DNA from: Glycine soja
Taxonomy: Eukaryota; Streptophyta; Magnoliopsida; Fabales; Fabaceae
Length of the DNA stretch: 64,000 bases
Reading direction: 5' to 3'
NCBI RefSeq assembly: GCF_004193775.1
Contig: NC_041005.1
Span: 10,852,501-10,916,500 of the forward strand
A model generated the notes under the pieces. It did no database searches. It was given only the letters and a program-made list of their open reading frames with translations, and was not told where the DNA came from. The position numbers were made by a program, and so were the translations under genes. Each line of letters starts with the position of its first letter. Within the stretch, counting starts at the first letter, position 1. Positions 2,517 through 63,828 of the stretch are shown piece after piece.

Positions 2517-2554
2517 ATTGGTATCAAGAGCTTTATTCTTACGGGACCTGTACC

Positions 2555-22812: not shown

Positions 22813-22813
22813 C

Positions 22814-26010: not shown

Positions 26011-26022
26011 ACAACTCCTTCC
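25928..26022 (-). pseudogene. orphan first-exon-like fragment (copy A)
   Basis: The minus strand from ATG near 26022 reads MLEGVVSSIQDYDLNQIGYL then NQFPNMENEDMV, open until TAA. In copy B the same position after ATGCTTGC is GTAAGT, a splice donor, while here it is CTAAGT. It may be the first exon of a gene whose rest is gone. Family not recognised. Confidence 0.35.
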
Positions 26023-26829: not shown

Positions 26830-26845
26830 TATATTTTACGACGTA

Positions 26846-26881
26846 CATTCTAAGACGGTTATTGAAAACCGCCTTAGAATG
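26846..26881. repeat. 15-bp arm hairpin with CACTA subterminal motif
   Basis: cattctaagacggtt and aaccgccttagaatg are reverse complements with one mismatch, separated by 6 bp. Confidence 0.75.
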
Positions 26882-27081
26882 TTTTATGCAATAAAGTCTA
26901 CCTCGGGTTTTATGTAAAGACTGTCGTAATTGGAAAAAAAAAAACAAGCGCGCTATTTTTTCCCAGAAATCACTCTCTTCTTCTGCACGCCTCTTCTTTT
27001 TCTCTCACTAACCCTAAAAGCCCATCCTCGTGAGTCATTGCCGCTTCTACTTCTAGGGTTTCTTTTTTTTTTTTTACGACG

Positions 27082-27780: not shown

Positions 27781-27875
27781 TTTCCTTGTCTTTATTTAAA
27801 TTGTCCGTCAATTTGTGCTTGGGTTTTCTTATAATTTGGGGTTGAGTTGCTGTTTTGTCATTTACTTTTGAGTAG

Positions 27876-29134
27876 GTATGCAACTGCCAGTGCACGCTCT
27901 GATGGGCTTCTTCTACTTTGTGGAGGGAGGGACATCAATAGTGTTGTGAGTTATCTATTCAGAAATTTTCACCTATTCATTCGATTGATGTGATTTGCCT
28001 AGGAATTTCCTTGTACAAGTTTACCTTATTTTGTGATTGAAATTACTCTTCTTCCCCCTTTTGCCCTTGTGGGTTGCCTGTATGGTGGCCTATAAACATT
28101 CTAGAGTTATCTATGGTGATGAGTAAGAGTTAAATATCCCTTTTTCTTAAGCTACATCTGTAGCTTAATATTGTTTTCCAATTCATCATAAGAATTAGGT
28201 CTGTGTCTGCCTGGTTGCTATATAAGTCAATATTATGATAGAGAAGAGAAATAAACTAGGGGTGAAGAAGAGGTATGGTCGAGAGTTGAAAAAAAAAACA
28301 AAGATAATAGTAGTGTATTGGGTTACAGGACAGTCAATTTCTTGTGCAAATTGGATTGATCCAAAGAATGGTGGCTTCCTTTCAATTCTTTATAAATAAG
28401 TGATGCACTGTTTGTGGGCTTGTAGATTTTTTTTTTTATGCTCTAAACGGGATTTGTCATGGGCATACCTTACTAGTTCCTGGGCAAAATAGTATGAGTA
28501 CCATTGATTCTTATACTGGAGGCTTTCCTTGCAAATAAGCAAATGAATTGCTATATTTATATAGTGATCTGAGAGTTTATGATTACAAACAGGAGAATAA
28601 ATGGTTAATAGGTTTTTCTCCTTTCCCTCATGACTGGCTAGCATAATATTTTGTTTGGACTATTTTTAGTATTTTATTGCGAGTGAGTTAGGCATTTAAT
28701 TTCCATTAATGCTAATTTTGGATGCATGACTCAGATACATTGACTATCTATTCCTCGGAGATTATGTTGATAGGGGCCAACACAGCCTGGAAACTATAAG
28801 TCTTCTGCTTGCTCTAAAGGTACTCTGGATGTATAGGTTGCCTTTTGTTTTGTTTGTCAAGTTTAATGGCATCAGGTTTATGCATGGTTATTTGGATTTT
28901 GCAGGTTGAAAATATTCAGCGTCCAATTACAATGGAAGCAGGATCAATTGTGCTTATGGATCTATTATGGTTGGTGCATTTGTATACTCAAACATGTTTG
29001 TGATAATTTATTTCATGTTCTTTTGGAAGAATGACAGCATGAAATGTTTCTCTAGGTCTGATCCTACGGAGAATGATGACAGTGTTGAAGGGCTGCGGCC
29101 AAATGCTAGGGGTCCAGGATTAGTCACTTTTGGG
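27876..29134 (+). pseudogene. BSL-type Kelch-phosphatase (PPKL) fragment
   Basis: Exon 27876-27945 reads YATASARSDGLLLLCGGRDI, part of a Kelch repeat. Exon 28735-28819 reads [20 protein letters not shown] then ISLLLALK, with the GDxVDRG metal-binding motif of PPP phosphatases. Exons 28905-28969 and 29056-29134 read [20 protein letters not shown] then LWSDPTEND and EGLRPNARGPGLVTFG. These are characteristic of BSU1/BSL phosphatases in brassinosteroid signalling. The exon holding RGNHE is missing between 28819 and 28905, so the catalytic site is incomplete. Donor and acceptor sites of the remaining exons are mostly good. Confidence 0.8.
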
Positions 29135-32100
29135 GTGAGTGATTTTTATTTGGTATTTTGTAAAATAGTCATTATTTTGTTTTTCTTCCAAGAGAATGAT
29201 ATAAATAGATTCAAGATTTGATATTTTTAAATTTGACAATAAATATATTAAGAGCTTAATTTTTGTATGCTGTCATTTTGAATTTCCTGGACAATTAAAT
29301 CAAAATTTGCTCAATGTTAATTTTTATGTGAAGATGTAAACTGAAATTTTGACTATGACTATGATAATATAGTGCACACGAATTGTTGGCTAATTGCTGA
29401 CCCTGTTCTTTGAAGTTTATTTATTTTTAGTAGTGAGATAGAAAATAAGGTGGTAAAGGAAAATTAAAGGCACATAAACACTTTTCACTATGAATTTGTG
29501 CTTATTTCTGTCTATTTATCTTTTTCTGGAAAAAAATGGAGCTTGCTGGAGATCAGACATATTGTTCCATTGGAAATTGAGGTCTATTTTTGGCACCAAT
29601 TTCATTTAAGACTATAAGATGACATAAAAAGTTATATAGAGATAAATATTGAATTAATATATTAATGCAAAAATATTAAAGAAATTAATATATTATGATA
29701 TATATTGAATATTTTTTCATAAATTAAAAATATATATAACTACATTAAGTACAAAGGTAATACTATATGAGAAAAAAATTAAATAGATAAAATAATTAAT
29801 TTTAGATATTTAGACATAGGTACCTCAGCATTATCAACATTTCATTAATACTTATAATTTCTCTTTAATATATTTTGTAATATTCTAAGAACATTTTAAT
29901 ATTCTAAGAACATTTAATTTAGTTTTAATATATTTTGTAATGGCTTTTTAATATATTTCTTTTTTATGTGAAACATATTATTGGAATGTGTGTATACTAC
30001 AGAATCAGAAATCTTACAGATTGAAGAGGCAATTGCAATTCAAGGAAATAGTTCTTTTGAGGAGAGAGCAATTATACTTTACAAGGTTAGTAGTATATAT
30101 ATATATATATATATATAAAGGTTATGTGGTTAGTTTGCTAGAATATTGCTGCTGCAAATGGGGCATGGACTTTTGATAGTTTATCTCACCGATTTATTTT
30201 TTTAACATACTAGTACAATTGTATTAGCCACGTTATAAGAGACGTTTTTTTTTTTTCACGTTATAAGAGATTGGCTTTCCTATTCAATATAGATATATAA
30301 TATAATACATCAAAAGATATATGTGAGTGAGGGCTTTAAATTTAAATCATATATTTAATTAAATATAAATGATTAAAATTTAATGTTATGTAATTTTTTA
30401 AAAAAAATTATTTGACTTTTTAATATTAATATTAGATATTACTCATTTATGTATGTTTAGACGATTCAGATTTAAATCATTTTATTCTCATATTAAAAAT
30501 ATTACTTATAGTGTCATTACAAAAGATCATATTATTATTATTATCATAACAATTTTTTACACTCAGACCAATTATTTATTGAATTTAACTCTATGTATGT
30601 TTAATATGTTTTTTTAAATTAATTATGGTAAAAAAAGTCAATAAATTTATTATATATGATCATTTGTGATAGTTATTATTTTTTTTCTCATGCATGATCA
30701 TTTTAGTTATGATATTTTATGTACTAATTATTAAAAATAATATGCTATGATATTTTATGTAATAAGGAATAAATAATTGAACGTGTTAATGAAATGGAAA
30801 GAAAGTAAAAGTCGAGCCGAACTTTTGAGTTAGATAGGAGGGCCTGTTTTACTGGAAGTGACCTTTGCGTGCTCCATTCCTTTATTAATTGTTTCATTAT
30901 CTTAATTTTCTTTTATTGGTTTTAAGATTTGCCTGTTTGACTGGAAGTGACCTTTACTCTTTACTTGGGTTTTATGAACGCAGAGATTGACAGATTATAT
31001 TGGATTGCCCTGTCCGCATAGCTCGAGGTTGCAAGTATTGTGTTGCAGATCATAGATCTTCTTGCCTAGTCAAAATTAAAGATGACAAACAGCTCTCAAG
31101 GGTGTTTCAGGTGTGTAGAAATTAAATTAAATGCAGAAATTAAATTATTTAACTATATGGTATTTCAGGAAGAAGTGAAAGAATAATCGCTGTGTAATTT
31201 AAAAATTGAGATGTTGTAGAGGTGTTTCTTTTCTACTGTATAACTCTTATCTCTTGATTGGATCAGGTAAAAGTAAAACACTTCATACTAATTATACACA
31301 ATAAAGTTCTAAATCATTTGAGTGTTAAGGATTCATTTATATATAGAAAAGTTTCTTCAGTCATTGTATGTGGAGTCAAATATAGCTTACTGACATTATA
31401 ATTTCTTTATACTAACAGTAGATCAAAATTAAGAAGTTTTGACTATACATTTATAACTTATACTTAATTTTAATTTATTGCTTGCTGTAGTTTTTTAATT
31501 TCTCTTTAGGACTCTAGATATACTATAGCTGTTTGCCATGTGTAGGAGTATCTCTAGATATACTCATGCTTTTTGAATTTTTCCGTTTACTGAGAAATTC
31601 TTCTTAACTAGATTGTATTTTTAGTTTAATTTTTATATATTATTAATTATTAATGGGAAGTTTTTTTCTCGATAATAATGGGAAGATTTTTATATTGGAT
31701 CACTAAATAAATGAGAGTTATTTTGTATCTATGGTAGTTTTTAAATAATAGTGATTTATTATTGTTGTAAAAAAAAGTGGTTTATTTAAACAAACAATTA
31801 AAAAATCAATAAATTTAGCATAAAATAGATTCTTAGTTTGTGTACTAATTGATTGGTATTGTTATCATGTTATGGACATTTAAAAAACACTATTATTAGG
31901 TATTAGTGTTACCGTGATATAGTCTGGATGTTTATAGCAATTCTCTTTTTAAGGCATATGAGTTCTCTTTCATTTTCTTTACTTTTTTTTTTTTTGCAGG
32001 TGACACTAAGCAATTCGTTTAATTTAATGTTACCCACAATGAAATTTAAGGTATATTTTCTTTTCCTTCACTATTACTCCCATTTAGTATCTTTAACATT

Positions 32101-32703: not shown

Positions 32704-33796
32704 GTAAGTGTGCTTCATCCAAGACTGTTTGTTTTCTTTCCTCCATTCAATATGCATATATCGAATTGCATTATCTTGTTGTTGTTTTCTTAATTCAAGT
32801 TTCAAACCTTGGACATGGATCCAGTGGCAGATCTAGGACAATCTATTTAAAGAATAAAAATTAACAAGTATTACCATGAAAGGAGGGGAAAATAAAGGCA
32901 GGGGTTCAAATATGCAAAATTAGGAGGGACAAAATATTGGATTGAAAGTGAGGGGTGCATGTGCAGCCCCTCATTTAAGTGTGGATGCACCACTGCATGA
33001 ATCTGTTAGGGATAAATAGCATTCAATCAACTATTACATACTATTATAAATGACCTGTTAAAGGTGCATATCTCATTTAATATAGCTAGGTGAATTTCAC
33101 AAGTAGTTATGAGCAGGATTTTGGGGGGTATATGCACAGACAAAATGACAATAACACCCTAGTCCTATTATACTGAAATACTCAGACTATAAGGTTCGTT
33201 TTGTGTATAAATATGATAGTAACGTAATAGGGTAAGTATAAAAAATTTGATCAACTCTTGTATTATCAGGCATTTGGTGTGTGTAATGTAAGTGACTTAA
33301 TTGTATATATATATGACTATCTGCTATGACTATACAACTGCCTGTTGCTTTTTTTCTTTGGTATCTCACCCAATTCCTCACAGAAACCTCCAAGCCTGAA
33401 CCCAACTGACCCCTCACTTCCAGTTCAACAGTTTATTCTCTTCACTCTCTTCCTTCACCCTACCTCTCCTGCTATGATCAAACTATTGTGTAGGGTTATG
33501 GTGATTGACATGCTTCTCTTCAAGTATATCATGTTTCCCAATGTTGGCAATGGACACTCACCTAGATGCCATGAATCCCTTCACAGTGTGGCGTGGACTA
33601 GCTTCCAGCTTGTGATGTAAGTGTGGCAGTGGAAACCAGAAAACATATATACAAGCAAGGTAGTTTCTTGTACTTATTCATTAACTATTTTGATAGTTGA
33701 AAATTGACACGAGTTTATAAATTAAGTCTCATATGAGACATTACCTAGCTAGGACGCCACAAAAATTTCAGGAAAATAATAAATAAAAAAACAACA

Positions 33797-34081
33797 TTCT
33801 ACATCGGTTATGGAGGTACAAACGATGTAGAATGTCCACATTCTACATCGGTTATACCTGCAGAACCGATGTAGAATGTGGACATTTTACATCGTTTATA
33901 CCTTCAGAACCGATGTAGAATGTCCACATTCTACATCGTTTGTATCTTCAAAACCGATGTAAAATGTCCACAATTTTAAAATGGCCATTAGAATCGATGT
34001 AGAAAGGGTCTACCACCACGCATCATAACCGATGTAAAATGACCATTAAAATCGATGTAGAAAGCCATTTTTTTAGTAGTA
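33797..34081. repeat. CACTA right end: subterminal repeats and terminus
   Basis: At least eight alternating copies of ttctacatcggtt and aaccgatgtagaatg, ending in a terminus one base different from CACTACTAAAAAAA (reverse complement). Confidence 0.85.
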
Positions 34082-38500: not shown

Positions 38501-41500
38501 TAATAAGAATTAAGGGACAATATTTTTTGTTACCAATATGTATTGAAGGTGTTACAACATTATGCTCATTTTGTGTCTTAATTGAATAATTATGTTATGC
38601 TTATGGATTGCTCAACTATAAATAGAGCATCAAACCATGTAACCAAGTGTACAGAATAAAGAGGAAGAGGTAGAGAAAATTTTGGAAGAACAAATGAAAG
38701 GAGGTATGATAAATCTAACATGCCATAAGTATGGTCATTTTTCATGGGGATGCAAAGCCAATATTGAATGCTATAATTGCCATAAGTATGGTCATTTTTC
38801 TTGGAAGTGTAAATCCAATGTTGAAGAAAAATTCAATGGAGCAAGTAATAGTGACAAGAAAGATGATAAGAACTTATGGTATCTTGACAATGGAGCAAGT
38901 AATCACATGGGCGGTTACAAGGAGAAATTTGTGGAGCTTGAAGAAGAGGCCAAGGGAAATGTTTCAAGAAGCATGAGGTGGAGTGAAGCCAAGAGTTGAT
39001 CATCTAAAAGTCTTCGGGAGTATTGCATATGCTCATGTGTTCAACTAATTAAGCACGTGTTCATTGGTTATAATGCAAGTTCAAAAGGTTACAAGTTATA
39101 CAATCCTATCAATAGAAAGATTGTAGTAAGTAGATATGTAGAATTTGATGAAGAAGAGATGTGAAATTGGAAAAAAGAAGAAGATACCGATGATTTCTTT
39201 CCTTATTTTGGAGAAAATGATGAAGAAGTTACAACACCAAATGAGTTTTTTACTCCACCTTCTTCAAAAGTCATTCAATTCATGAAGATCATCTTCCGAA
39301 GGGAGTTCAAGTGAAAGACTAAGAAAAATGAGAAGCCTTCAAGACATACATGATGAAACTGAAGTCATGAATGATTTGTTTTGTCTTTTTATTGACAATG
39401 AGTTTTTCACCTTTGAAGAAGCTATGAAAGACAAAAGGTGGAGACAAGCCATGGAGGAAGAAATTAATATCATCAAGAAAAATGACACTTGGGAGTTATC
39501 AAAACTTCCTGAGTCATGAAACAATTGAAATCAAATGATGTTCAAGTTTAAGAAAAAGAATGCCAAAAATGAAAGAAGTGATGTTAGTTCATGTGAAGAC
39601 AGAAAACCAACTTGTATATATTTTTACTAAGCCCCTTAAGCTTGAAGATATTAGAATTAGAAGATTGAGAGCAAGATTTGGAGTGTACAAAATTAATTGA
39701 GGATTTTCTAATTAAGGGGAGATGTTAGAAATAATAATAATAATAATTAGAAAATAAAGGATTGTGAGTTACCATTAGAAGATGAATATGAGTTAATAAG
39801 AATTAAGGGACATTATTTTTTGTTACCATTATGTATTGAAAGGGTCATGACATTATGTTCATTTAGTGTCTTAATTGAATAATTATGTAATACTTATGGA
39901 TTGTTATACTGTAAAATAGAGCACCATGTAACCAAATAAAGAGAATCTTCTCTAAAATCTCTAGTGTCTTCTCTTTTTCTAACAAAATTTACCTGGGGGA
40001 ATTCCACGCACTAGGAGGGTTGATGCCACGGTTGTTGAGAGCAAATACCGGGGAAGTTTGGTTAGTCATGAAATGTCCATTTGTTGTCCAACTCCATGTT
40101 CCTGCCTGCACCTGCTTATGAGTTATGATCAACAACAATAATAATGTTAACTTTGGTTTGCAAAACATGGTCCATGTAGAACATCCATAGTAATGGAACA
40201 AGTATATAAGGATGCTTACACTCACATGGTTTTGCTTAAAAAAGGGTGGATAAGAGGAAAACAGTGCATTGAATTCATTGAAATTTTGGTTTGCTAACAT
40301 ATTTGAAACCAACAGTTGATTGCTTGTGTTGTTCTCGTTGACCTGACCCAGTTTCGGCCTTCTACAAAATGGGAAAGTACACAAGAAAAACACATATCTA
40401 AAACTTGTTATAAAGGATGTAATAATGACTTCACAATTTGTGAAATATGGTAGGAAGACCTACAGAGGTAGATTATTGTTTTGCATGAGAGGATATTGAT
40501 TGTTGCAGTTCATCGGGATGGTGATATCTTGGGCTTGAACCGATGAACCTACTCCTTCTGAGATCAATCCCACCTAATTAATCGAATCAAATGTTAAACA
40601 ATTTAATTGTAGAGATTGCCCATTGTGGTAAAGTTATTTGCAAATGTAAGTGTCTTGTTAGCTTCAGGTATATATACATATATTAAGACACATAATCATC
40701 AGATATATGAGATACCTGTTGTTGAATGTACTACATTAATATAGAGTAGCCGGTTTTCAACTAATAATATGTATGATTTTAAATTGTGGTTCACAATCAC
40801 AATTATGATGGTTAAATCAGCAACTGCATTGTGACTGCATTAATCCCATTGTTTTTCAATTTTTTACAATATCAATGATTGTGACCAAACTACAACCGCA
40901 GTTTAGAACCATGTGTATATGCCATATTAATATTGGACAAACGCCTACTTATATTTTAATGCTCGGTAAGCGTACAAGTAAAATGCATATCAATGAAGGC
41001 AAAGTATTATAAATTATGATGACATGCCACACTAATAGATGAATTGATCGTGCTGTTACCATGGATGGTATATAACAGTTGGACTCAGCATCCGGATCCA
41101 ATAATGGAGCGGAAGTGTTTGGAGACAACAAGGGCAACTGATAAGAATCATTTACAGAAAGTTGTGGAGGGTTTCCTCCCATGCTGGAAGAGTTTACTTC
41201 CTCGGTATTGTGGGCTATGTTTGGTGTTGCAACCACAGTTCCCACCATGTCGTGAACCTGAACAATAATATATATATACATGATACATAAAATGGGAAAA
41301 CAATCTCAATATGCACAAACAAAACAGTTCTTCTTTCTTCATTATGTGGTAGAGTGCCAAGTGCATATAATAGTTTGGTTGAATTAATTTACAATCTCTT
41401 ACGTATTTGACAATATTTAATTCAATTCCTAACTTATATTTATTTTTTAAACTAAGTCCTTAAAGCTGGGATTAAAAAACAGATACAAGCATAAGGGATT

Positions 41501-49960: not shown

Positions 49961-50524
49961 TTTATTTCCTAAGTCATCATCTGTCATAAAATCAATTTCA
50001 CCAGAAAAAAACATCTCTCAAAAAACCACAGAGAAAAACACGTTGTTAAAGTTTCATTTTGCCATATAGTCGAAACTATGTATGTGTCCTTAATAAGATT
50101 GTTAGTATCAATACATACAATCTCTAACTTAATGTAATAACACACTTTAGACTAGGTATATTTTACATAAAGGAGGTAATTGCATAATCCACTGGATCAA
50201 CCTCTTTATTTGATAGCCTGTAGTCTTTTTCTTTATCAACAAATAACACATATTATTCATGAATTTTTTAAATAAACAATTTAATGAAATTCATATTATA
50301 TATAATATGAATATGTTTCTTTTATGAATTATATATTCATTAAAATAAGAATATGTTACTTTTATTATTTAGAATTTATGTTTGAACTTCGTACAAAAAT
50401 ATTTTATAAATTTCAAACTAGTAAACATAATCAATGGCATTTTCAATTATCTCAATTTCTAAAAATAGAAACTAGGAAACTAAATAAACATGTTCTGTAA
50501 AACTTTAAAATATGACAGTAAATT

Positions 50525-50528
<4 letters not shown>

Positions 50529-50576
<48 letters not shown>
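50529..50576. repeat. (AT)n microsatellite
   Basis: About 24 AT units. Confidence 0.95.
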
Positions 50577-50581
<5 letters not shown>

Positions 50582-51118
50582 GAAATTATTCCTATTTTGA
50601 CAAGGTAATGATAGTTTAGGGTTTTAAGGTTTTGCCCGCCAGATGTCCCAAAAACATTAACACCAGCCAATTATAAATATATCCAGTACTGCCTCGTAAA
50701 ATTGGTATACACGAAAACAACATCGACATTAAGGCCCAGATAATATTATTTGCACTCTAAAATTTATTACATAACCTTTTATCTTCTAGTTTTGTCAAAT
50801 TTTATGTGTGCAACTAATATTATTGGAAACTATAGTCTTTGTTTCTATTCCAATTTAAATGCTCTTGGGCAATTCAGGCACTTGACGCTTCGTTTGAGCA
50901 TGCTAGGCACATTCGTTCTCTACATAAAGAAATTAACTATCTGCAATAACGACTTGCGGTGTAATTTTTCTGTAACGATGAAAACTCACAGTACCTTGCT
51001 AGAATATTTCTGAATAACAAGAAAACTAATTATTGGCAATATAGTATCAAATTTTTGCACATTAGCAACTGGTATTTAATAAAAATAAAGTGCGTGGTTT
51101 AGAGAATTGTAATTAGCT
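50577..51118. other. intergenic DNA, no gene assigned
   Basis: A frame at 50750-51013 has no recognised motif. The region lies just downstream of the paralogue fragment. Confidence 0.4.
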
Positions 51119-51599
51119 GAAGGTGGTGGTGGTGATGGTGGTTTGAATAATCCGAGATGGGGGTCAATGGGAATACCCGTCCTCTCAAATTTCGTGTCAT
51201 AGACAAAGTTTGCAAAATGCCTTAAAATTAACTACACTGTCAGGAGGTTTTCCTCTTTTTGGGATGTAGGGTTTGTTCACTACTAAAATAATAATATTCT
51301 ACAACGCGCATTCAACATCGGTGGTTCCAAAAACGATGTTATTTTAGAGACAATGGCATTTTAGTAAATAAGTGATTTATTTTAACAACGTTTTTGCAAG
51401 AAATGATGTTATTTGTGCGTTACAACATCGTTTTTGGAACACCGTTGTTGAACGGCAAGTAACATGAATTGTGAACAACATCGTTTTTTAACAAAAACGA
51501 TGTAATTTATTCTATTCAACAACGTTTTTAAACAAACCCGTTGTGGTCTTGGGTTTTTTTTGCTTTTTATTCCTATCTGAACTTATTATCGCTTCTCTC

Positions 51600-52252
51600 T
51601 CTTTCGGGCAAAGAACTCCTCAATGAGGCCTGTAGGTCTTCTCCACATGTTTCTCTCTCCTTCACCCTCGATCCCTTCCTTTTTCCTCAAATTCCACGCC
51701 TCCTTCTCCTTGAAGACCCCGACCTCCACCTTTCGCGCCTTCTCCGATGCCGAGGAGGACGAAGAAGACGATGAAGAAGAAGACCAAGACTAAGACAACG
51801 TTTCTACCGACGAATACGACGACGTTTCGGGTGAAGCTTCCAACGAGGCTGACGTATTCCCTCAAATTCGACGTCGATGAGCTCGCTTCAGTCTACGACT
51901 TCCGCATCGACAAGTTTCAGGTTTGTTCACCGTTTGTTTTTGTTTCTCTTCGTTTTCGAGAAATTCGAAACTTGTGTGTTGAGGTCTTGATTTGTTTTTG
52001 TTGAGTTTCAGCGGCAAGCGATACTGGCTTTTTTGAGAGGCTTCTCGGTGGTGGTTTCCGCTCCGACGAGCAGCAGGAAGACGCTGATTGGGGAGGCCGC
52101 GGCAGAATGTGAGTACTTATTGACGACTGCTTTTCATGCAGTGTTGGTAATGTTTCTTCTAGAAGTGGACTTGTAAATGTTGATGTGATTGTTTTGGACG
52201 AAGTTGATTACCTTAGTGACATATCTCGTGGTACAGTCTAGGAGGAGATTGT
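51600..52252 (+). pseudogene. ISE2: ISE2-type chloroplast RNA helicase (DExH) fragment
   Basis: Exon 1 (about 51600-51921) encodes a chloroplast-leader-like Ser/Phe region, an acidic run (AFSDAEEDEEDDEEE), then after a TAG and a frameshift DVDELASVYDFRIDKFQ. Exon 2 (52012-52108) reads RQAILAFLRGFSVVVSAPTS then SRKTLIGEAAAE. Exon 3 (52142-52252) reads VGNVSSRSGLVNVDVIVLDE then VDYLSDISRGTV and stops. These match helicase motifs I and II of ISE2. Motif I has SSRKT instead of SSGKT, motif II is DEVD instead of DEVH, and a conserved Trp is a stop. Exons between motifs I and II are missing. Clearly inactive as a helicase. Confidence 0.8.
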
Positions 52253-52431
52253 AAGCATTATTTTTTGACTTTGCATGTTACATAGCTTGCTCAACTTCTC
52301 CTATTTGTTCATGCATATTAGGACAATTTCTGCAGGTTATTTATTGATAAACTTCATTCCCTAATCTAGGCCCCCTGCCCCTGCCTCATGGAATTTATAG
52401 TATTTCTGCAGTCTAGGATGTATGCTTTACT

Positions 52432-52833
52432 ATAGATGTAAACGGCCTTCTATCTGTTTCTGTGGAAGAAACAACCACTGGTTATAGGAATGAGATTACC
52501 ATAACTAATGACCAAAAAAGGCTTTCAGCTGAGGAGATTATAAGAATGATTCATGAAACTGAGAATTATCAGGTTGATGATAGGAAGTTCATGAAGAAGG
52601 CTAATACAATGAATGCTTTGGATGACTATGTTTACAAGATGAGGAATGCATTGAATAATAAGAATATCAGTTCAAAGCTTTGTTTACAAGAAAGGGAGAA
52701 AATCAAATTTGTAATTTCGAAGGTGACAGATTTGCTAGAGGGTGATAATCAGCCGTATGAAATAGAGGTGTTTGAGGATCATCTGAATGAGCTTGTGAAC
52801 CTCTTTGATCGTGTCATTGGCAAGTTTGCTTAG
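52432..52833 (+). pseudogene. HSP70 C-terminal fragment (substrate-binding domain)
   Basis: Reads VNGLLSVSVEETTTGYRNEI then TITNDQKRLSAEEIIRMIHE then a helical lid through VYKMRNALNN, ending VIGKFA and TAG. This is the end of the beta-sandwich and the alpha-helical lid of a cytosolic-type HSP70. The ATPase domain is absent. The 123-codon frame from 52462 is uninterrupted and includes the native stop, but the terminal EEVD of typical cytosolic HSP70 is lacking, so the donor was probably a divergent family member. Confidence 0.8.
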
Positions 52834-53069
52834 ATGTTTTTTAAGTTTTTATTTTTTGCAATGCTGAGATCTGTCATTTTGTTTGTATTGAATGCAAACT
52901 TTTCTAATTTATGATGTTGTAGTTTAATATATTTGTGCCTGACATGTTTTAAATTGTTATTATTGTTGACTTTGGCTTTTGTTATTGTTATTGAATTCAT
53001 CTTTGGATCAGTTCACAAGAACAAGCTTTGCTATGCGTTGTTCATCTTTCTCTGAATGGATCTCAGTCA

Positions 53070-54210
53070 ATATTGTTGTGGAAAGAAACATATGTTCAAT
53101 ATTGTTTCTTGTTTGTGCAATTATTTGTGGCTATATATATCAGGTACAAGTTTTTGCTGACATCATAATCATGTTGGAAAGTTATTCAGGAGTCATTAAC
53201 TTGCAATTTTCTGTGCTTGGCCAATTGTTGTTGCAGTGTCCACCATTTCGGTTAAGCTACCAGGGGCTGGGAGAGCCCTTGTGCTTTGCAGCATTTGGGC
53301 CTTTTGCCACTTGTGCTTTTTATTTATTACATGGCAGTTCAAGGTTACCTCAGCTACCTAATTAGAATATCTTATAATATTTGATTTTTCATGGTTTTGA
53401 TATGGAATGATTTGGACAGTGTGATGAACCATTTCCCCTTAAGTGGAACGGTTCTTTCAGCATCAATTCTTGTTGGCTTCACAACATCTCTTATCTTGTT
53501 TTGCAGTCATTTCCATTAGGTATATTCATTTTTTGAATTTTAATTTCCAATTTTTAGGAACTTTGATTAGGTGACATGTTTTTATTCACAACACAGGTGG
53601 AAGGAGACAGGGAGGTTGGGAAAATGTCACCTTTGGTAACTGCACTTTCTTTAAATTGAACTTTTTTCTAATCCATGTTAATGCTGTGAATCTACCTATG
53701 TTACTTATTTTCCATTTCTCTTTCAGGTTAGACTTGGCACTAAAAAAGGTGCAGAGGTAGTGAAAGGGGCAATCTTTATGCTCTATGCTATTTTGGTTGC
53801 TTTTGGTCTAATCAAGGCACTTCCTCTCACTTGTATAGTATGTACTTCTAAACTCAACCAATTTTTTGCATCTCATTCTTTATTTTTTTCCCTTCTTTAA
53901 AGGTGTAGCTGTTATTTTGGACCATGTGCTCATGATTTATTCTTTTGGTTATGAATATGATTGTGCTAGTTCCTTTGTGCATTGACCTTGCCGATGGGAA
54001 ACCTAGTAGTTAGATTTGTCGAAGACAATTACAAGGCAAGTGAATTTTTCTTATAGACTTGTCTGTTGGTGTATTTCTTATAGTTTGCTATTAAACCTAA
54101 GTTGTATTCTCACATAACAAAAATAAGATTTTCATGGCTAAGTACTTCTGTGTGAGGCTTCATGCATTGTTTGGAGTTGCACTGGCTTTAGGACTAGTGC
54201 TGGCTCGAAA
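53070..54210 (+). pseudogene. ABC4: ABC4/MenA (DHNA phytyltransferase) fragment
   Basis: Exons with good splice sites: to 53143 (FLVCAIICGYIYQ), 53237-53344 (CPPFRLSYQGLGEPLCFAAF then GPFATCAFYLLHGSS), 53420-53519 (TVLSASILVGFTTSLILFCS then HFH and a TAG), 53597-53635 (VEGDREVGKMSPL), 53727-53837 (VRLGTKKGAEVVKGAIFMLY...), 53970-54035 (FLCALTLPMGNLVVRFVEDN, with a GC donor) and from 54128 ([20 protein letters not shown]). This is the second half of the chloroplast UbiA-type prenyltransferase of phylloquinone synthesis, including the second Asp-rich motif (EGDREVGK). The CAG to TAG change at 53517-53519 and the missing N-half make it non-functional. Confidence 0.85.
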
Positions 54211-54331
54211 GAGTGTGGATGACCCTGGAAGACCCCCTGGCATTGTTCTTAGTGCTGCCACTTCTTTTTGGCTTCCTGTTCCTCCTAAACGAGTCTTTGA
54301 CTTTCTTCGTGATGAAAACTCTAGGAATGAG
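54211..54331 (+). pseudogene. HD-Zip IV START-domain exon fragment
   Basis: [20 protein letters not shown] then [18 protein letters not shown], then a gtatgt donor. This matches the START-region exon of class IV HD-Zip proteins (GL2, PDF2, ANL2 group). It is joined in frame directly to the ABC4 exon (LVLARKS then VDDPGR) without an intervening splice site, so the junction is a fusion point. The homeodomain is absent. Confidence 0.8.
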
Positions 54332-54788
54332 GTATGTGCAAAAATTCCAAAAAGCTAAGTGTTTGTGCTAATTATTTTATTACGAAAACTTTTTTCCAAC
54401 AAATGAAAAAAATAAATAACATTAGTAAACATAAATGTGTGTGTGAGAGATAATATGCAACATTGAAATATAATTGGGAAGAGAGATGCAAGCCTTTAGA
54501 AAAATTAAATATGGAATACAATCGTAGTATTCAAGTAAGGTACTGTCAAAATCCTACCTAAATTGAAAATCAAATAAAAATTTATAACTAATTAAAATCA
54601 AATAAACTTGGATCTTTTATAAGTTTGATATCATAAAAACTATTTCAATTAAATAATCTTTATTTGATTTTTTAAAGCCAACCTATCCAAATCAACTAAT
54701 ATTACATATGCAGTATGAATCTTTTATAAGATTTTAATGCATTTTAGATACGTGTTTAATGATTGTCCTTTTTTTTTGTTCCCTGCAG

Positions 54789-54841
54789 GTGCTTTGGTTT
54801 TACCCATTATACGTGTTTAGCATAGTTCTTAGCACAATTTG
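54789..54841 (+). pseudogene. EI24-like membrane protein exon fragment
   Basis: Between cag and gtaatt the exon reads VLWFYPLYVFSIVLSTIW. The LWFYPLYVFS string is typical of plant EI24 (etoposide-induced 2.4) homologues. Only 53 bp, so identification is moderate. Confidence 0.55.
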
Positions 54842-55209
54842 GTAATTAGCATATTTTGCTTTACACTACTAAAATAGAAGCCAATTGCGCAATCTTATTT
54901 CAAAGTTTCCTATTACTACTTCATTCTTAATTACATAAATGTACAGGTCTTTATTACTGTGTAAAAGAACATAAATGAACACGTCTCCATTTTTTTTGTT
55001 CCTTTACTAGTTTTTTCTTAATTACATAATTATTAATTTATTTTTAATTTGTTTCCATTAACACAACCTTTTTTTGGTTGGACAAAATTTTGAAAATTAA
55101 TAAGATAATAATCTTTTTTATATTATTAATTAACCACATATGTAGAAGGTTATTAATATTGAAAATATAAAAAATGATCATTAATTAATCAATTTTTAAT
55201 TGTAGGTTA

Positions 55210-55655
55210 TTAAATATTTAACATCGTTTCTTAACTGAATATCGATGTCGAAAAGTGCTATTTTACATCGTTTCTTATGATAACACTGATGTAGAAGGTC
55301 TACCTTCTACATCGTTTCTTAACTAAACACCGATGTCGAAAAGCGTTATTTTACATCGTTTCTTATGATAACACTGATGTAGAACGTTTAACTTCTACAT
55401 CGTTTCTTAACTGACCAACGATGTGAAAAAACGCTATTTTACATCGTTTTCTATTATAGCACCGATGTAGAAGGTTTAACTTCTACATCTCTTGGTATGT
55501 TAGGCCTGATGTAGAAAATGTTGACTTTCTACATCAGTGGTTGGAGGACCGATGTTGAAACTTTTAACTTTCAACAACATTCTATTCGACATCGGTTGAC
55601 CACTGATGTTAAATGTCGATTTCCACTGATGTTGAAACTTCCTTTTCCAGTAGTG
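55210..55655. repeat. CACTA right subterminal repeats of element IV
   Basis: More than ten copies of tacatcgtttctta / accgatgtagaag-like motifs in alternating orientation. A CACTACTAAAATAG string at 54872 just inside may be a second, internal CACTA end. Confidence 0.8.
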
Positions 55656-56107
55656 GTTGCAGCTTTTCCTCTTTTGGAAGAAACCTTCTGCAACTTCTCA
55701 AAAAATTAAACAAACCAATTAAAAGAATCTCATAATCTCATTCTTGGATTCATAAATTATTTATCACAATAAAGTGAGAAAAACAACATATTCACGCTTC
55801 AGAAGAAAATAATCTATATGTCAACAGCTTGATGATATGGGTTTTACCTCTCTTAGTGACAACAGCAGGTTTCCTAGATCATAATTATACGTACCCTATT
55901 AACAATAGTGTAGAGCTTAACATATTTTATAACTTACAATGGTGATTATACATTATCATCATCATCTTCTTAAATAAAAAGAAAAGAAATGTTTCAGATG
56001 TTTTTACCCTCCCACTTGGATTTTGCGGAGCAGAAAGAACATTGTGTGTAACTGTTCTTGTCGGATTCATGATGAGTACTCTTTGCATTGCTTCAGAAGG
56101 TTGTGTC

Positions 56108-57432
56108 CTATGCACACATTCAACAACGTAAATAAGAATGCCAAGTATACAAGGCCCTTAACTTGGGAAAAGAGTTTTATAAACTTCCAACATATATAAT
56201 TATAGGAGTCTATACAAAACTCAGAATATATCAAATACTTCATCAATACTTTCACTTCTCATTATTTATCTATTTATAATGTCATATCTCGTATTATATT
56301 TATAGTTCTATTACTTTTCTTTTTCTTTCCCTAGTGCTCTTTTCTAATAAAAATTTAGCAAGTTATATTATTTATTTAATATTTTTCACAATATAATTCT
56401 TTTTTTTTTATCTCTTTTCATTATATTATACTTATGTACTCTCCTTTTCTAAGGATTAATAAGAATATATATTTAATTTTTCCCTCTTATTTTCACTGCA
56501 TTTTTTCTTACTTTCTATCACATCACTTGTCACATTTTTCAATTTCTCAGTGTATTTTTTTCTTCTTTTTTCTTTCTTTCACTCCAATTAATAACAAATT
56601 AGGATGGAAATTCAGTATCTCCTTTGCTTACATCTCTCATGCTTGTAAATTTTGTTAACAATATTATTATATAAGAATAACTTCTCAAATATAAAGAGTG
56701 CTTTGCTTTTTACATTTTCTTCTTGGTCGATGCCGTATAAGAAAATCAACCGGAACACTTTCCAATATTCACTGATATGCTCATTTTACATGATGTAAGT
56801 GCAGGAGAAATCATAGATAACTTGCAGTAAATTACCTAGTCGATAAAGATCTAGAAAGTTCTCCTTTGTTGCCTTGAATATGGACTTCTTTTTTTACATT
56901 GTGGCTACTTATTGCACTCTATAAAAAAAAATCATTTTATCATTTAACTTTTTATTGAGAAAATAAAAATATAGATAACAATAAAGTGTGTTTTTTTAAT
57001 TTATTATATTGTCTAAAAAACAATGTAAAAATAGTGTAAATAATTTGACGCGTGAATGAAATTATTACAGTAAAATCATATCATTGAGATGAAAATAATC
57101 TTTGTTGTTTCAGACGAGACGGAGGCAAAAAAAAATCTCAAATGAAAAATAAAAAATCTGATACGTTAAAATTGGTGTAATCTCAGGCACCCTTGAGTTA
57201 TGTGTCTGTCATCTTGTGCTACTCTGCTATTGTAGATTAGGAGTGTTCATACTTTGATTTTATTTGTTAATCTGATTTGGTACTCCTTGGGACCTATTTA
57301 TTGCAAAGTTAATTAATTATTAATTATCATATACAAATTAATGTACTGCTTATGCAGTTGGTAAAAAATATCATAGCATCCTTTTAGGCGAGAGTGTTAA
57401 TGGTTATTGATAAAGGTTGATCACCACTATTG
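56108..57432. other. intergenic DNA; source of a 35-bp filler
   Basis: AT-rich. Bases 56478-56512 (ttttccctcttattttcact...) recur exactly at 58219-58253 in duplication copy B. No gene is supported. A possible exon-like minus segment near 56830-56880 is not recognised. Confidence 0.5.
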
Positions 57433-58218
57433 CACAAAGGCACCATTTTGTAGTCCATGACCATTAGGTATCATGACTTGGGAATGATGATGTTGATCCT
57501 GATTTTCATACAACGGGACGGGGGATGCCAATAAGAGATTATTGTTAACATAATGAAAATGTCATATTTGATAAATGGATATACTTATCGGTTTTAAATT
57601 GTTCATACAACAAATTAATTAAAAAAAAAAAAGAAATCAAGTTACTCTATGAGTAACTCTTTTTAAAGTTATTCCCTTCAACAGAAACTATATGTATATA
57701 TTAAATTTTATTAGTTCAATAGCTGAATATTTTAATACTAACTCAACAATCGATATATTAAATTTTAAATAAATTTAATATTTGTATATATGTAGTTCTA
57801 TAATCAACTTCTACTTATATTTTTAAGAAATACATTTTACATTAGATGAAATTTTTTAACGAAGTAATTATAAACCTCATTTATTTAATAAAAACTTTTA
57901 ATTCAGCTATTTGATTAATAAAATTAACACACATAGAGATTGATAGATAGTTAGTTATTGGAAAGTGTATTTTGACCCTTCTCAATTGAAAAAGACACTA
58001 ATTATTATTAGTTGTCCACTTTTAATTTATTTAGTTTTTTGACATCTCTATAAAGTAAAAGAAGAGATAATATCAATAAAATAAAAAGATAAATTAATCA
58101 AATGTAATTATATTTTTCTAAACTTGTGGCTATTTAATAAATTTTTAATTTGTATATAAAGCTTTAAATGACATTTTTTTTAAAACAAGTAAACAAAGTG
58201 GAAATTTGAGGACAAACA
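57433..58218 (+). repeat. duplication copy B, segment a
   Basis: Counterpart of 8704-9482 in direct orientation. It ends at gaggacaaacat, where copy A ends gaggccaaacat. Confidence 0.9.
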
Positions 58219-58253: not shown

Positions 58254-59832
58254 TGTTGATTCTGCATATTATTGAATGGTTGGAGCAACCTGAATAAATA
58301 ATAAATAGTTCATACATTTTGTCGGTAATTAAGTAGTTAATCAAGTAATTGCAATAAGAAGCATAGGAATGGAATGATACTGCGTGTGGGTTTGGGTGTA
58401 TGGGTTTGTGTGTATTGTGCACCATAGAAATCGGGAGCAAAGAATAGGTGGTTTTCAGGTCTAAAGATTAAAAATTCAAATTCAAACGATGTCATTATGA
58501 GTACAAGAAACATCTAAAAAATATTTAATTCTAAATTTAAATAATTAATGCGTGCTTAAAAAGAAAGTTTAAATAATTTATGAATTCTTGCTATAGAAGC
58601 CAACAATTTATTAGGTACCATTAAGATTTAAAATTGTGGGTCTCACACTTACAGAGAAATGAGGCCCATTGTGGGACTAACAATTTTCTTATCTTGTAGG
58701 GTAATATTTTCAAAGGATAGGAATACTTGGGTAAGTATTAAGTACCAGTAGTTGAAAAAGTTAGATGTCACCTTGAATCCCATGCATGCAAGTCTTTGAG
58801 GTGTTACAAGTTGTCCACTTGAAAATCCTGTTTCAATCCTTGGCCCCATTAATACCTGCAAATAAGTCAAAATATGGACAACAAAAATGGTCACTAAGAG
58901 TAACAAAAAGAAAACCCTATATAAGCAATGCAATTAACCTTTTTTTTTCTTGCACAACAAAAAAAGTATTTATATATTGATAGCAAGGCTTTGTCACAAG
59001 AAGTACAGAACCCCGCATCTAGGTGACATGCCCAAAATGCACCTGAAAATTAATGATAATCCTCTGCATTGTACAATACAAGTACGTACGTGGCATCTAA
59101 CAACAACCCAACCCACACCACAACTTAACTAACGAATTTGCATAAATCAACTAATATATGCACCATATATACAATGATAGCTTAAACTCTTTCACGTAGG
59201 CCTTGCACCTGCTCCAAGCTTGATATTTAATAGAATCTAACACCTCCCTAGCTTCCAGACTTACTTCGTTGAAGATGATATGGTTCATATGCTTCCACAA
59301 CGACCATATCATTGCAAATCACAGGCCCCGACACACATCTAGCCTTTGCCCCAGGTAAAACTCTGAAATGTTGAGAAAAATGTTCCTTACACTCCACATG
59401 TAGCACCCTTATTTTCCCTAACCATACATAGCATCTTTGTCAAATTTCATGAGAAAAGCAGCATTCAATTAACAAGTACTTTGCAAATTCCATGCCTAGA
59501 TTGCAGAAAACACAATTAAGACTAGTTCCATCTTGTAATAGGTTCATTCTCCTCAAGTTATATTTAGTTTGAATCCTGTTATGTCCCACCCTCCACAACA
59601 AGCCTTTAAACTTTGATGGAACACGTAAATTCCATATTTGGTTAAAGAAGGAACAAACATCTCCCAACCTATCTTAATTAATGATGCATAAACCTCTTTA
59701 ACAATGAAGGTTTTTGCAGCATTATTCTTCCACACCCATCCATCTTTTCCACCCACCTTTGGCTCCCAACCCTCCGAAGCCTCCTCCAATTGTTGCACAA
59801 TGGGTATTTCCCATTGTAACCACAACCGTCTC
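58252..59832 (+). repeat. duplication copy B, segments b and c (left part)
   Basis: Continuous here, whereas copy A is split by CACTA element II (17722-22813). It runs into the LINE remnant and is interrupted at 59832 by a solo LTR. Confidence 0.9.
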
Positions 59833-62800
59833 TGTAACATTCTAATTTTTGTAATCTAGTTTAAAAAGAATTGTTATTTATAAATAAATAGAGTTTTAGA
59901 AAAATGATGAGATTTTATAAATAAATAAATAAGGAGATATAATTATTAATTAAAATAATGATTTGAGAGAAAAAAAATATTTCATTTATTTGTTTGATAG
60001 AAAATAAAATAGAATTTGTTTTTATAAAATAAATAAATAAATAAATATAGAGTAAATAATAGGCTGAATACCCTAGGTATAAATAGTTATCTTAAGTCAG
60101 GTGCCTCTTTTTGGTCTCATTTTCGTTTTTTCCTCTTCTCCTCTCAAAACCTTTTCTTTTTTCCGCAGCCCACCAAACATGTCTCAGAAAAACGATTATC
60201 TCGGACTCGTTCACCGTTGGATCGTCGTGAAATTTGAGTACCATGTTCGCCACCCAATTTCAAACATTCTCACCGTTGGGAATTTCAAAATCATATCTGA
60301 GCTTAGAGGAAAACCCTTCGCATTGTAGCATTTCAATTTCCCGCAGAAACCCAAAACTGTCTCGGTAAAACTACGATCCCGATTTCGTTAACCGTTGGAT
60401 TTTTATGAAATTTGGATATGTTGTTTTAAATTCAGTTGCGCACACTTCCACCGTTGGGATTGTTGAGATAATATTAGTGGATGGAGAAAAAGGAATCTCA
60501 TGAAGACAGTACAAGTGGAGGTTTCAATCTCTTCTCCGTCTCTCTGACATTTGGGAATTCTATCGGAGCAGCCGGAGGAATAACTGAAGGAATCTCAGGG
60601 AACCGCTATAGATGTTACTATCGTTAGCTGAAGACACGTGAGTCCGCTCAGAGGTAAGGGATGAGTTTATCGCAATTGGGGATTAGAATGAACATGTGTA
60701 GGGATCCTTAGAGAACTAAATTTGGGTTTATTTTGGGATGTTTATTGAATTATAATTTTCTCTTTATGATTATAAATATAATATTATTGTGTTCTATGTA
60801 CCAATTGATGTCCTGATGAGAATTGATTGATAAACTTGAGTGCTCTTGATGTCTTTGTGTTTAACCCAAGAATTTGATTAATTGATTTTGATATAATTGT
60901 GAGAAACTATTTCAGGGATTTTACACCCCATGTTGTGATGAAATCTTTTGTATAAATTGTTATGTTGAGATTATGAAATGATGATTCAAACTGTGAGTAT
61001 GTGATAAATTGAACATGTGACGGATGATGAAATACATGTGTATTGAGATGAGATGTGTGTATTGAGTTGTGAACTATGAATTGTACAATCACACAATTGT
61101 AAGACCCTTTAAGGGCGACGAGTATTGTGATGGGATCCACTGTGGGAATCCGACGAGTTAAAATGATTTTGAAAACAATTGAGTAGATGTGTGTATTGCA
61201 TAGTTCATAGGTAAAGTGTACATGATTCATGAGGTGTGATAACATGTTAAATTGAGATTATACCATTGTGATTGGGATTAAGTGTATGTGATAAATTGAG
61301 TATGTATATGATTGAGATATATATGTGCATTGAGTTGTGAACTATGAATTGTACAATCACACGATCATAAGTCCCTTCAAGGGCGACGAGTTAATGCTAA
61401 GTCCCTTTTAGGGCGACGAGTTGATGTTAAGTCCCTTTTAGGGCGACAAGTTGATGCTAAGTCCTTTTTTGGGCGACGAGTTAATGTTAAGTCCCTTTAA
61501 GGGCGACGAGTTAATGATAAGACCCTTAAAGGGCGACGAGTTAAAATTATTTTGAGAACAATTGAGGAGTCGTGTGTTTTGTACAGTTCATAGATAGAAT
61601 CTGTGTGCTAAAATAATTTTAGGGGTTGGACCTGAATCAGGAGGGAGAGGCCCTGACGGACTCTTCGGAGTGTAGGCCTTGGGGGTCACCGGGTTTGAGT
61701 GCTCCTTTAAACCTATGTTGATCCCATATGGTTGGAGCATTCTCGCAAAACATCGTGACCCTGACTGGTCTCCCTATGATCTTACTTAGTGAGAGTGACC
61801 TGACAAACCCATTGTGTGGTGTGTCTTGTTATGTACTCCTAAGCGCCCCAGGGTGGTTTTTCACTGATATGGTACCACATTGCATATAGGCTTGAGTCTT
61901 AGCATAATTGTCGCATACGCTTGCTAATTGTTTATTATGAAATTGATGTGTTATTATGTCTTGATCGGAGTGTGTGATTCCTGTGAATAATGATTGATGA
62001 TTGAAAGGTGTGATTGATGGATGAAAAGTGTGATTGATGAATGACAAAGTGATGAAATAATGTGAGATATGCTAAGTAAATTGTATTTGGCTACTATATG
62101 TTGTGTTGTTTCTCTCTAGTAGTTAGCAATGTGATAACTCACTCCCGGTTTGTTGTTTGTGTTTGGATCCTGTGATGATCTTGAACTTTGTGTTCGGGGA
62201 AGCAGATGAATAGGTGGATGACTATGAAGAACCTCATGCTAGAGGACACGGGAACACCACGCTCTGATAGGATGTGACATTAGGATATAGGTTCTATATT
62301 AATTGTATGAGACTTATATGACTTTCTTTGAGTCGAGATGACTTTATTATTTATTTGGACAAGTTTGAATATGATGTAGAAGAAAGTGAATGTGAGCCTT
62401 TTACCCATTTGAAAAGCTTATATTTAAAAATGTTTTAAAAATACTTGTAATTAATATTTGAATTTTTATTCCTTTATTAATATATATATGAGGGGTAGAG
62501 GGTGTCACAGTCTCCATGAGAAATGCCATGACCACACTCCACCACACCAATCAGCAGCCTCCCACTGGATTTAAATCTCACACCAATCACCACACTCCAC
62601 AACCGTCTCCTAACCACTCTACTTCCCAAAAGCTCACCTTATTTCCACCTCCCACTCCTCTACCTAACCCGGATTGCAACCACCTAAGCTCATTTTTCAA
62701 AGATCTCACAATAAGTCAAAGTATCGCACCACCATTGAGCTCCCTTCACCGCACCCCCACCCTTGATATGATAATCCAAGTTCCCAAGCTCATATTTTTG

Positions 62801-63660
62801 TATAAGGACCTCTCTCCAAAGACATATTTTCTCACTGAAAAACATCCATACCCATTTCCCCTCTAAGGCCCTATTAAAAATTTCAGTTTTTAATACCCAA
62901 ACCCCCATACTCCCACGATTACACATGACTTCCCATTTTACCCAAGACACCTTTTGTTCCTCCTTTACCCCCCACCTCCCAAAAAAAAAACCTTTGAATT
63001 ATATTTAAAATATTTTCAAGCTTTTTGGGAATTTTGAAAGAAAAAAAAAGTATATGGGTAAAGAAGATAAAACCGGTTTTATCAAGTAAATCCTCCCACC
63101 AAATGATAACTGCCTCCTCCTCCAAGATGGCAATTTACAAGGCCCAAGTAGTTGAAAGGAGTGGACATTGTTGCACAATTCAATACTCTTGCAACTCTTC
63201 TAAGAACATTCTTTTCCACATTTATACCCCAAGCTACTTTTGAAGAAGTTCAATTTGAGATCGGAAGCCAATTCAAAACAAAGAAGTATGACCTTCAAGG
63301 TAATAAATTCTAAGATAGAATCCTTGAAGAAGAAAATGGTAATATCTTGCAAATTGTAAAAGTGAAACCTTCAAGTCACCCCTCCCAGTATCCACCCTGA
63401 ACAATTTTTTCCTAGCCCTTTTTGTGCTATGAATTCCTTTGTGGGACCACCATTCACAAGAACAAAAATAAAGGATGATTGAAGGCAACCCACACTCATC
63501 CAATCCATTTGCTACAAAAACCCATCCTATGAAGCATGTAAGCTAGGAAACTCCATCTCATCATGTCACAAGTCTTTTCAAAATCAAACTTAACTATAAG
63601 ATAAGCTCTCTTCTTAGTCTTCACCTCATGTACAACCTCATTTGCAACTAGTATTTCATG
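59160..63660 (-). pseudogene. LINE ORF2 remnant (copy B), split by a solo LTR
   Basis: Minus-strand pieces at 59160-59832 and 62515-63660 match the copy A LINE remnant: MGDVCSFFNQIWNLRVPSKF, LQDGTSLNCVFCNLGMEFAK, WGLRGV-type C-terminal blocks and the CLWREVLIQKYELGNLDYHI region. Further decay relative to copy A includes an internal deletion near 63125-63170. The solo LTR lies between GTCTC target duplications. Confidence 0.8.
59833..62509 (-). mobile_element. gypsy-type solo LTR in reverse orientation
   Basis: 2677 bp from TGTAACATTC to GAGGGTGTCACA, flanked by a perfect 5-bp target duplication GTCTC (59828-59832 and 62510-62514). Reverse complement of the family at 13812-16334, with the same six 30-bp tandem units (about 61365-61540), and about 150 bp longer near its left edge. 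Copy A of the LINE (ccacaattgtctccatgaga) shows the uninterrupted target. Confidence 0.92.
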
Positions 63661-63828
63661 CAAAAACATCACATTAACATTTTAACTAGTTGTGATAAGA
63701 TATAAATTACATAATTCATAAAATGATAGGAAAAACTTACGCAAGCATATTCTCATTTTCCATGTTAGGAAATTGGTTCAAGTAACCTGTGTGATTCAAA
63801 TCCTATCCTTGAATGGACGAAACAACTG
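62515..63828 (+). repeat. duplication copy B, segment c (right part)
   Basis: Matches copy A from catgagaaatgccatgacca (24240 region) to gaatggacgaaacaact. It also holds the orphan first-exon-like fragment (minus strand, near 63720-63825), here with an intact GTAAGT donor but a TAG in the upstream frame. Confidence 0.85.

Follow-up and report, generated by a model that had tools for sequence, protein, structure and literature searches.

A nonautonomous CACTA element in the window

The window analyzed here is a 64,000-nucleotide stretch of the Glycine soja genome, which was placed at C4:10852501-10916500 in an assembly of 1.014 Gb and 1119 contigs (numbered here with the prefix C), and it contains a complete nonautonomous CACTA transposon at window positions 51278 to 55655. 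The 5′ terminus reads CACTACTAAAAT and, together with a short subterminal repeat region of ACATCG/ACAACG motifs, occupies positions 51278 to 51569 of the plus strand; the same end was found in all five copies described below. The 3′ terminal region (positions 55144 to 55655, plus strand) is made of subterminal repeats with a 44-bp period and closes with the letters CCAGTAGTG. A GTT triplet, the target site duplication, abuts the element on the left (positions 51275 to 51277) and on the right (positions 55656 to 55658). The empty site is a duplicate of the flanking DNA at C4:10.554 Mb (L043), which is 97.75% identical to the joined flanks over 1200 bp and has one GTT.

Several properties assign the element to the CACTA superfamily: inverted ends of the form CACTA...TAGTG, a 3-bp target site duplication, and asymmetric subterminal arrays, of which the one at the 3′ end has the 44-bp period. 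Subterminal hexamers (ACATCG/CGATGT) occur 17 times in total within the terminal 300 and 520 bp and are absent from the middle of the element. The terminal inverted match is short, comprising the identical 7 bp CACTACT, beyond which the 5′ and 3′ ends are divergent. As in Pack-CACTA elements, no transposase domain was found in the nine open frames scanned and the interior is host DNA with donors elsewhere, namely, on C1, C18, C8, C6, C16, and C9. Captured pieces and ends account for the length of the element, except for a short leader, a deletion scar, and an AT-rich spacer (approximately 54682 to 54735 and 54847 to 55143). A second CACTACTAAAAT, identical to the 5′ terminus, lies internally at positions 54864 to 54875 on the plus strand and is also present in L019 and L020; it is possibly a relic of an older element end. 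A search of Rfam returned no match anywhere in the window. The preliminary description of this DNA had proposed a CACTA element at 51278 to 55655 from its termini, GTT duplication, and subterminal repeats, and that proposal is confirmed by the empty site and by four other copies.

The whole unit recurs at other loci

A genome search for sister copies, which the preliminary description had suggested, found the whole unit (element positions 1 to 4378) at four other loci, on C12, C20, C10, and C16. Five copies is a lower bound, as 40 of 338 candidates were scored. Pairwise identity among the five ranged from 98.5 to 99.4%, and the recurrence of the entire unit at four other loci indicates that the structure in the window did not arise by chance. 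Matching 3-bp duplications were present at all six elements with alignment-defined ends (GTT, ATC, ATT, AGA, AAT, and TGT, the last being that of a relative on C7). The triplets match as well at an element on C20 at 8.77 Mb (AGG) and at one on C5 (ACG), for which the 5′ ends were chosen with the triplet in view. The window copy has a deletion site at positions 54361 to 54368 (plus strand), where approximately 330 to 340 bp are gone and the other four copies keep more intron and C9-derived sequence.

The two ends could in principle belong to unrelated elements lying side by side, as the terminal repeats share CACTACT and then diverge. Such an arrangement is contradicted by five copies of one unit, each with a different and matching target duplication, which indicate that the ends move as one; we consider this explanation refuted.

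Captured pieces and their donors

Fragments of five genes, ISE2, HSP70, ABC4 (MenA), HD-Zip IV, and EI24, lie between the ends, all on the plus strand and with introns retained. These fragments had been named in the preliminary description, and each is now supported either by a domain in the element itself or by a donor. Ahead of them is a leader piece (positions 51570 to 51650, plus strand) that is common to the C20 ISE2 element and the C7 element and that did not align with the ISE2 gene on C1. The ISE2 fragment (positions 51651 to 52407, plus strand) consists of the first exons and later sequence, with introns kept and with internal deletions. Its donor is an apparently intact gene on C1 (L032-L034) that encodes SH3_ISE2 (E 2.1e-90) and DSHCT domains and that the ISE2 pieces match at 84 to 98%. 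The piece in the element gave a DEAD match at E 0.0019, below the cutoff, and its identity is taken from the donor gene. C20:8.773 Mb was considered as an ISE2 gene or donor and rejected, as it has element ends of its own and an AGG duplication.

A C-terminal fragment of HSP70 with its 3′ untranslated region (positions 52416 to 53070, plus strand) matches the HSP70 Pfam profile within the element (E 1.8e-17), and the nearest gene found is at C18:56692518-56693187, with 93% identity. The ABC4/MenA fragment with its introns (positions 53074 to 54205, plus strand) matches C8:5393817-5394952 at 98.4% (98.6% for the C12 copy), and the donor matches UbiA (E 2.4e-16) and, with a partial peptide and under the profile cutoff, menA_cyano-plnt TIGR02235 (E 2.5e-52). 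All five copies differ from C8 at the same 11 of 1130 sites, and a further 14 ABC4 sites are polymorphic among the copies. At 1 of the 11 shared differences the copies equal the homoeolog on C13, and thus C8 is the donor and C13 was rejected. One ABC4 intron has a GC donor site (AAG/GCAAGT, window 54039 to 54045), which is the same in the C8 and C13 genes (L015 and L016) and in all five element copies.

Three further pieces complete the interior. The HD-Zip IV fragment (positions 54204 to 54360, plus strand) had been described as a START segment, but its match in the element is to PDF2_C (E 9.4e-16), a PDF2-like C-terminal domain, and its donor is C6:46730076-46730307 (98.3% over 232 bp). A sixth captured piece at positions 54369 to 54681 (plus strand), absent from the earlier list of fragments, is 98.7% identical to C9 sequence (L021) located approximately 1.7 to 2.1 kb before an Aux/IAA-like open frame, for which AUX_IAA scored E 0.0085, below the cutoff; taken at its full extent, the C9 match spans 1.7 to 2.5 kb before that frame, at 98%. 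The EI24-like fragment (positions 54736 to 54846, plus strand) consists of an intron end and one exon, VLWFYPLYVFSIVLSTIW, and is 97.3% identical to C16:242689-242799 in the C12 copy (111 bp). A Pfam search for EI24 across the whole genome gave 0 matches, and this donor was located by DNA comparison; after its exons were joined by hand, PF07264 scored E 0.0014, under the cutoff.

The donor search that had been suggested at the outset thus traced the five named fragments to unlinked genes on C1, C18, C8, C6, and C16. An ancestral locus at which the five genes were neighbors would account for their being together, and it is as thoroughly refuted as the pairing of two unrelated elements, as the donors are on five different chromosome-sized contigs.

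Order of capture

Relatives of the element carry subsets of the pieces. In the 2511-bp C20 element at 8.77 Mb, ISE2 is the only captured gene, and its fragment shows the internal deletion seen in the five copies; HD-Zip and EI24 are the only two represented in the 1604-bp C5 element. The C7 element lacks ABC4 and combines ISE2 with a longer piece of HSP70, a piece of a chloride-channel gene (Voltage_CLC, E 3.8e-5, slightly below the cutoff), and sequence flanking HD-Zip. A locus on C15 carries part of an ISE2 intron, exons for START and PDF2_C, and EI24, without the 3′ end of this element in the 27 kb examined, and a further HD-Zip/EI24 relative is at C15:46.26 Mb. The existence of relatives with subsets of the pieces indicates that the captures were stepwise.

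Divergence from the donors supports an order for these steps. At 355 clean ISE2 sites, the divergence of the C12 copy is 4.5% from the C1 gene and 2.8% from the C7 element, and the C7 element differs by 2.3 to 2.8% from two five-piece copies. HSP70 differs by 4.7 to 5.2% from C18 and by 1.5 to 2.0% from C7 in the three of five copies compared (those in the window, on C12, and on C20). The ABC4 divergence from the C8 donor that is common to all five copies is approximately 1%. Being larger for ISE2 and HSP70 than for ABC4, these divergences indicate that ISE2 and HSP70 were acquired before the split from the C7 element, that ABC4 was acquired later, and that amplification followed. We conclude, at a probability of roughly 0.85, that the element belongs to a nonautonomous CACTA family of the Pack-CACTA type that gathered pieces of host genes stepwise and was then amplified.

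A number of observations weigh against that conclusion or complicate it. The C20 ISE2 element differs by 5.1 to 5.4% from two five-piece copies and is no nearer to them than is the C1 gene; the C5 and C20 ISE2 elements, moreover, have 5′ ends partly unlike the rest. Simple linear descent of one element from another is thus not established, and elements may at times have fused or exchanged sequence. For none of six further 3′-end matches (C6, C7b, and L025-L028) did the 1.5 to 6.6 kb examined contain a CACTA upstream that was flanked by the corresponding duplication. P0001, one of the predicted proteins discussed below, has residues absent from all five copies, and therefore further copies or alleles exist. 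A templated origin was rejected for the filler at the ISE2/HSP70 join, as 151 of 300 null windows were as good. Finally, no source of transposase was identified, and no search aimed at one was made.

Junctions and the mechanism of capture

Retention of introns and the continued presence of the donor genes indicate that DNA was copied. At other joins the sequence retains signs of how copying might have occurred. In the C7 element, 33 bp of element sequence are repeated without mismatch on the two sides of the chloride-channel insert (none of 300 null windows was as good). The join between ISE2 and the 3′ end of the C20 element has a 24-nucleotide filler, 22 nucleotides of which match sequence 114 bp away (equaled by 1 of 300 null windows), and the HD-Zip/C9 join has a 22-nucleotide filler of which 20 were matched 30 bp away (11 of 300 null windows). 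Microhomology is present where ABC4 meets HD-Zip, which share CT, and where the C9 piece meets EI24, which share AATGC. The fillers, the microhomology, and the 33-bp duplication suggest that breaks in the element were repaired by copying from a template. In such a mechanism, gene pieces would be copied from genomic DNA, introns included, into breaks inside existing elements, and the copying would leave behind fillers, microhomology, and flanking duplications. The element itself would be moved in trans by the CACTA transposase of an autonomous relative.

A different capture step is offered by a tandem model (Catoni et al. 2019, as described in PMC8903248 and PMC13317346), in which two neighboring elements lose their facing ends such that the outer ends mobilize everything between them. 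Here, ABC4 genomic DNA would have been trapped between a left element with ISE2 and HSP70 and a right element with HD-Zip and EI24, and only the capture step would differ from the account above. The layout of the five-fragment element does resemble a C7- or C20-like left arm, ABC4, and a C5-like right arm; moreover, the internal CACTACTAAAAT at 54864 might represent an end left behind, and relatives that share inner pieces have different 5′ ends. Nevertheless, the 6 kb around ABC4 on C8 is devoid of ACATCG/CGATGT, and the two CACTAC strings found there are unlike the element ends. The 33-bp duplication around the C7 chloride-channel insert, moreover, fits break repair inside one element better. 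We consider hybrid capture possible but on the unlikely side.

The orientation of the pieces might also bear on capture. All seven orientable pieces (ISE2, HSP70, ABC4, HD-Zip, the EI24-like piece, the C9 piece, and the C7 chloride-channel piece) are in the sense orientation (two-sided sign test, 0.016); the count covers pieces with a known gene orientation, which neither the leader nor a spacer that matches C7/C19 has. When the EI24-like and Aux/IAA-like pieces, those with the weakest Pfam support, are set aside, five of five are sense (sign test, 0.06). The sense-strand bias of the captured pieces is suggestive only.

Predicted fusion proteins and the state of the reading frame

At least six predicted proteins of Glycine (G. 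max and G. soja) span at least one join of the element each: P0001, P0002, P0003, P0008, P0121, and P0122. The count was made among the best 120 of 937 matches and leaves out P0123 (154 amino acids), which holds the HD-Zip piece only. Two of the six, P0121 (G. max, 443 residues) and P0122 (G. soja, 475 residues), both sourced from NCBI, join all five gene pieces in one frame. P0121 maps onto the C12 copy with 442 of 443 residues identical and with 11 GT-AG introns. P0001 and P0122 map less cleanly onto the same copy, with 22 and 27 mismatches. The ABC4/HD-Zip IV join, which the preliminary description had placed in frame within one exon, is indeed in frame, at window positions 54204 to 54206. 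The native acceptor of the last ABC4 intron, which would open the fusion exon, is AT rather than AG in all five copies, and P0121 uses an alternative donor and an alternative acceptor at that intron.

The P0121 frame is open in three of the five copies (C12, C20, and C10), and in the C16 copy a deletion removes a donor site. The P0121 ATG is present in the C12 copy only. In the window copy, ACG stands in place of that ATG, and codons 266 and 435 of the frame are stops. The first stop is a premature TAG in the ABC4 exon (positions 53517 to 53519, plus strand) that is private to the window copy, the other four copies having CAG, and the second is a TAA (positions 54843 to 54845, plus strand) where the majority of copies have CAA. 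An upstream in-frame ATG at window position 51771, the type of start used by P0003 and P0122, opens a frame of 281 residues that runs to the TAG at 53517 to 53519 and covers ISE2, HSP70, and part of ABC4. We conclude that the window copy is a decayed member of the family, unable to encode the full five-piece fusion. The chimeric spliced product anticipated by the preliminary description is thus plausible for the family, given predicted proteins that join all five pieces, and is weakened for the copy on which it had been based.

Open frames in intact copies raise the question of a domesticated chimeric gene, that is, of a five-donor fusion protein under selection in the intact copies and decayed in the window. 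Two predicted proteins joining ISE2, HSP70, ABC4, HD-Zip IV, and EI24 in one frame, a frame open in three of five copies, and the near-perfect match of P0121 to C12 could be taken that way. The start codon present in one of five copies, the others depending on an upstream ATG, and the two broken frames argue otherwise, as do gene models that vary by copy, P0001 and P0122 mapping poorly onto C12. Moreover, private substitutions are as frequent in exons (31 of 6649) as elsewhere in the span (38 of 9850), and the private exon changes (12 synonymous, 17 nonsynonymous, and 2 stop) are near the neutral expectation (8.8, 21.3, and 0.9, respectively). The fusion frame thus appears to be under no detectable selection, with the reservation that the counts are small, and domestication is very improbable. 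Function as a gene is unproven and, for the window copy, unlikely.

We give scarcely more credence to the compound proposal that intact copies such as that on C12 might be expressed as a five-gene protein of 440 to 480 residues and that the seven-of-seven sense orientation might reflect transcription-coupled capture. If it were true, a transposon would have built a new multidomain gene in Glycine from a helicase, a chaperone, a membrane prenyltransferase, an HD-Zip IV C-terminal domain, and an EI24 piece. Retained introns and in-frame exons may simply lead annotation pipelines, and perhaps the spliceosome, to read intact copies as one multidonor gene. The databases label five of the six fusion proteins as the chloroplast prenyltransferase, the product of only one of the captured genes, and the sixth as hypothetical. 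Naming the fusions after one captured gene looks like misannotation, and such names can mislead gene-family and pan-genome studies.

Comparison with known gene-capturing elements

Among known systems, the one closest in kind is Tgm-Express1. Tgm-Express1, known from the wp allele of the soybean F3H gene, is a 5.7-kb CACTA element with five host gene fragments that are spliced as exons into chimeric transcripts, with alternative splicing (Zabala and Vodkin 2007; PMC1947982). The two elements are alike in superfamily, in genus, in approximate size, and in carrying five unrelated gene fragments with exons and introns. They differ in content, as Tgm-Express1 holds UP, CDC2, FPK, MDH, and CS fragments (PMC1947982). 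In the available text of PMC2613891, Tgm-Express1 is assigned to the Tgmt* subterminal group, with the motif TTGGCAG / AATCTTACAG. Exact occurrences of TTGGCAG, AATCTTACAG, and their complements numbered 0 in the whole element, and membership in the Tgm/Tgm-Express subfamily was rejected on the absence of this published motif (PMC2613891). Judged by sequence, the element thus appears to lie outside the subfamily of its closest counterpart: the earlier assignment to a Pack-CACTA of the Tgm-Express type holds for the Pack-CACTA-like character and not for the type. In the sources as available, Tgm-Express1 is known by its transcripts; the present element is known by sequence, with its copies, donors, and partial stages traced.

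Other gene-capturing elements share particular features. The Pack-CACTA elements of Arabidopsis, for which tandem or hybrid capture has been proposed (Catoni et al. 2019; PMC8903248 and PMC13317346, as far as their accessible portions go), are likewise mobile, with nonautonomous CACTA ends around captured chromosomal DNA and gene pieces. Unlike in that hybrid proposal, junction fillers and a flanking duplication here point partly to template-copying repair. Maize Ds2 and Ds-l4 carry gene fragments and, in the accessible sections of PMC3260210, resemble the present element in capture at the DNA level, introns kept, filler DNA, and a donor gene elsewhere. They belong to the hAT superfamily, and the examples named in those sections have a fragment of one gene each, besides one compound element (PMC3260210). 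Among the open-licence titles listed, none deals with this element family. Capture of gene fragments by CACTA elements is already known; what is added here is that the source genes, the partial-stage elements, and the empty site are visible. Donors, subset elements, copies, and the empty site give a readable pedigree of such capture in one genome, in which break-repair copying, hybrid elements, and sense-strand bias become testable.

Surroundings of the element in the window

The left flank of the element (positions 50000 to 51277) is one of several duplicated segments on C4 (10.16, 10.41, 10.55, 10.75, and 10.90 Mb), with relatives on C6 at 8.57 to 8.59 Mb. Minus-strand open frames at 51076 to 51231, 55927 to 56157, and 57427 to 57561 appear by eye to be exon-like parts of one gene, in an intron of which the transposon would lie antisense. 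The frames at 51076 to 51231 and 55927 to 56157 had no Pfam match above the cutoff, and the host gene was not confirmed.

Traces of other transposons are present elsewhere in the window. An array of ACATCGGTT/AACCGATGTAGAATG repeats at positions 33795 to 34080 ends in a degenerate TTTTTTTAGTAGTA and has 69 to 74% matches to positions 55221 to 55489; these repeats mark it as a presumptive remnant of a further CACTA end whose subterminal repeats are related. Perfect CACTACTAAAAA ends lie inverted and 11.7 kb apart, at 17722 to 17733 (plus strand) and 29424 to 29435 (minus strand). A single large CACTA element at 17722 to 29435 was rejected, as the flanking triplets differ (TGG and AGA). A zf-RVT domain at positions 23725 to 24324 (E 4.9e-8) marks what we take to be a LINE-type element. 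Remains of copia-type retrotransposon polyproteins were recognized at 2627 to 4407 by eye and at 38643 to 38999 by Pol_BBD (E 5.2e-6). Large repeats of 83 to 93% identity pair positions 13859 to 16296 with 60019 to 62413 in inverted orientation and positions 22814 to 25581 with 58392 to 63665 in direct orientation.

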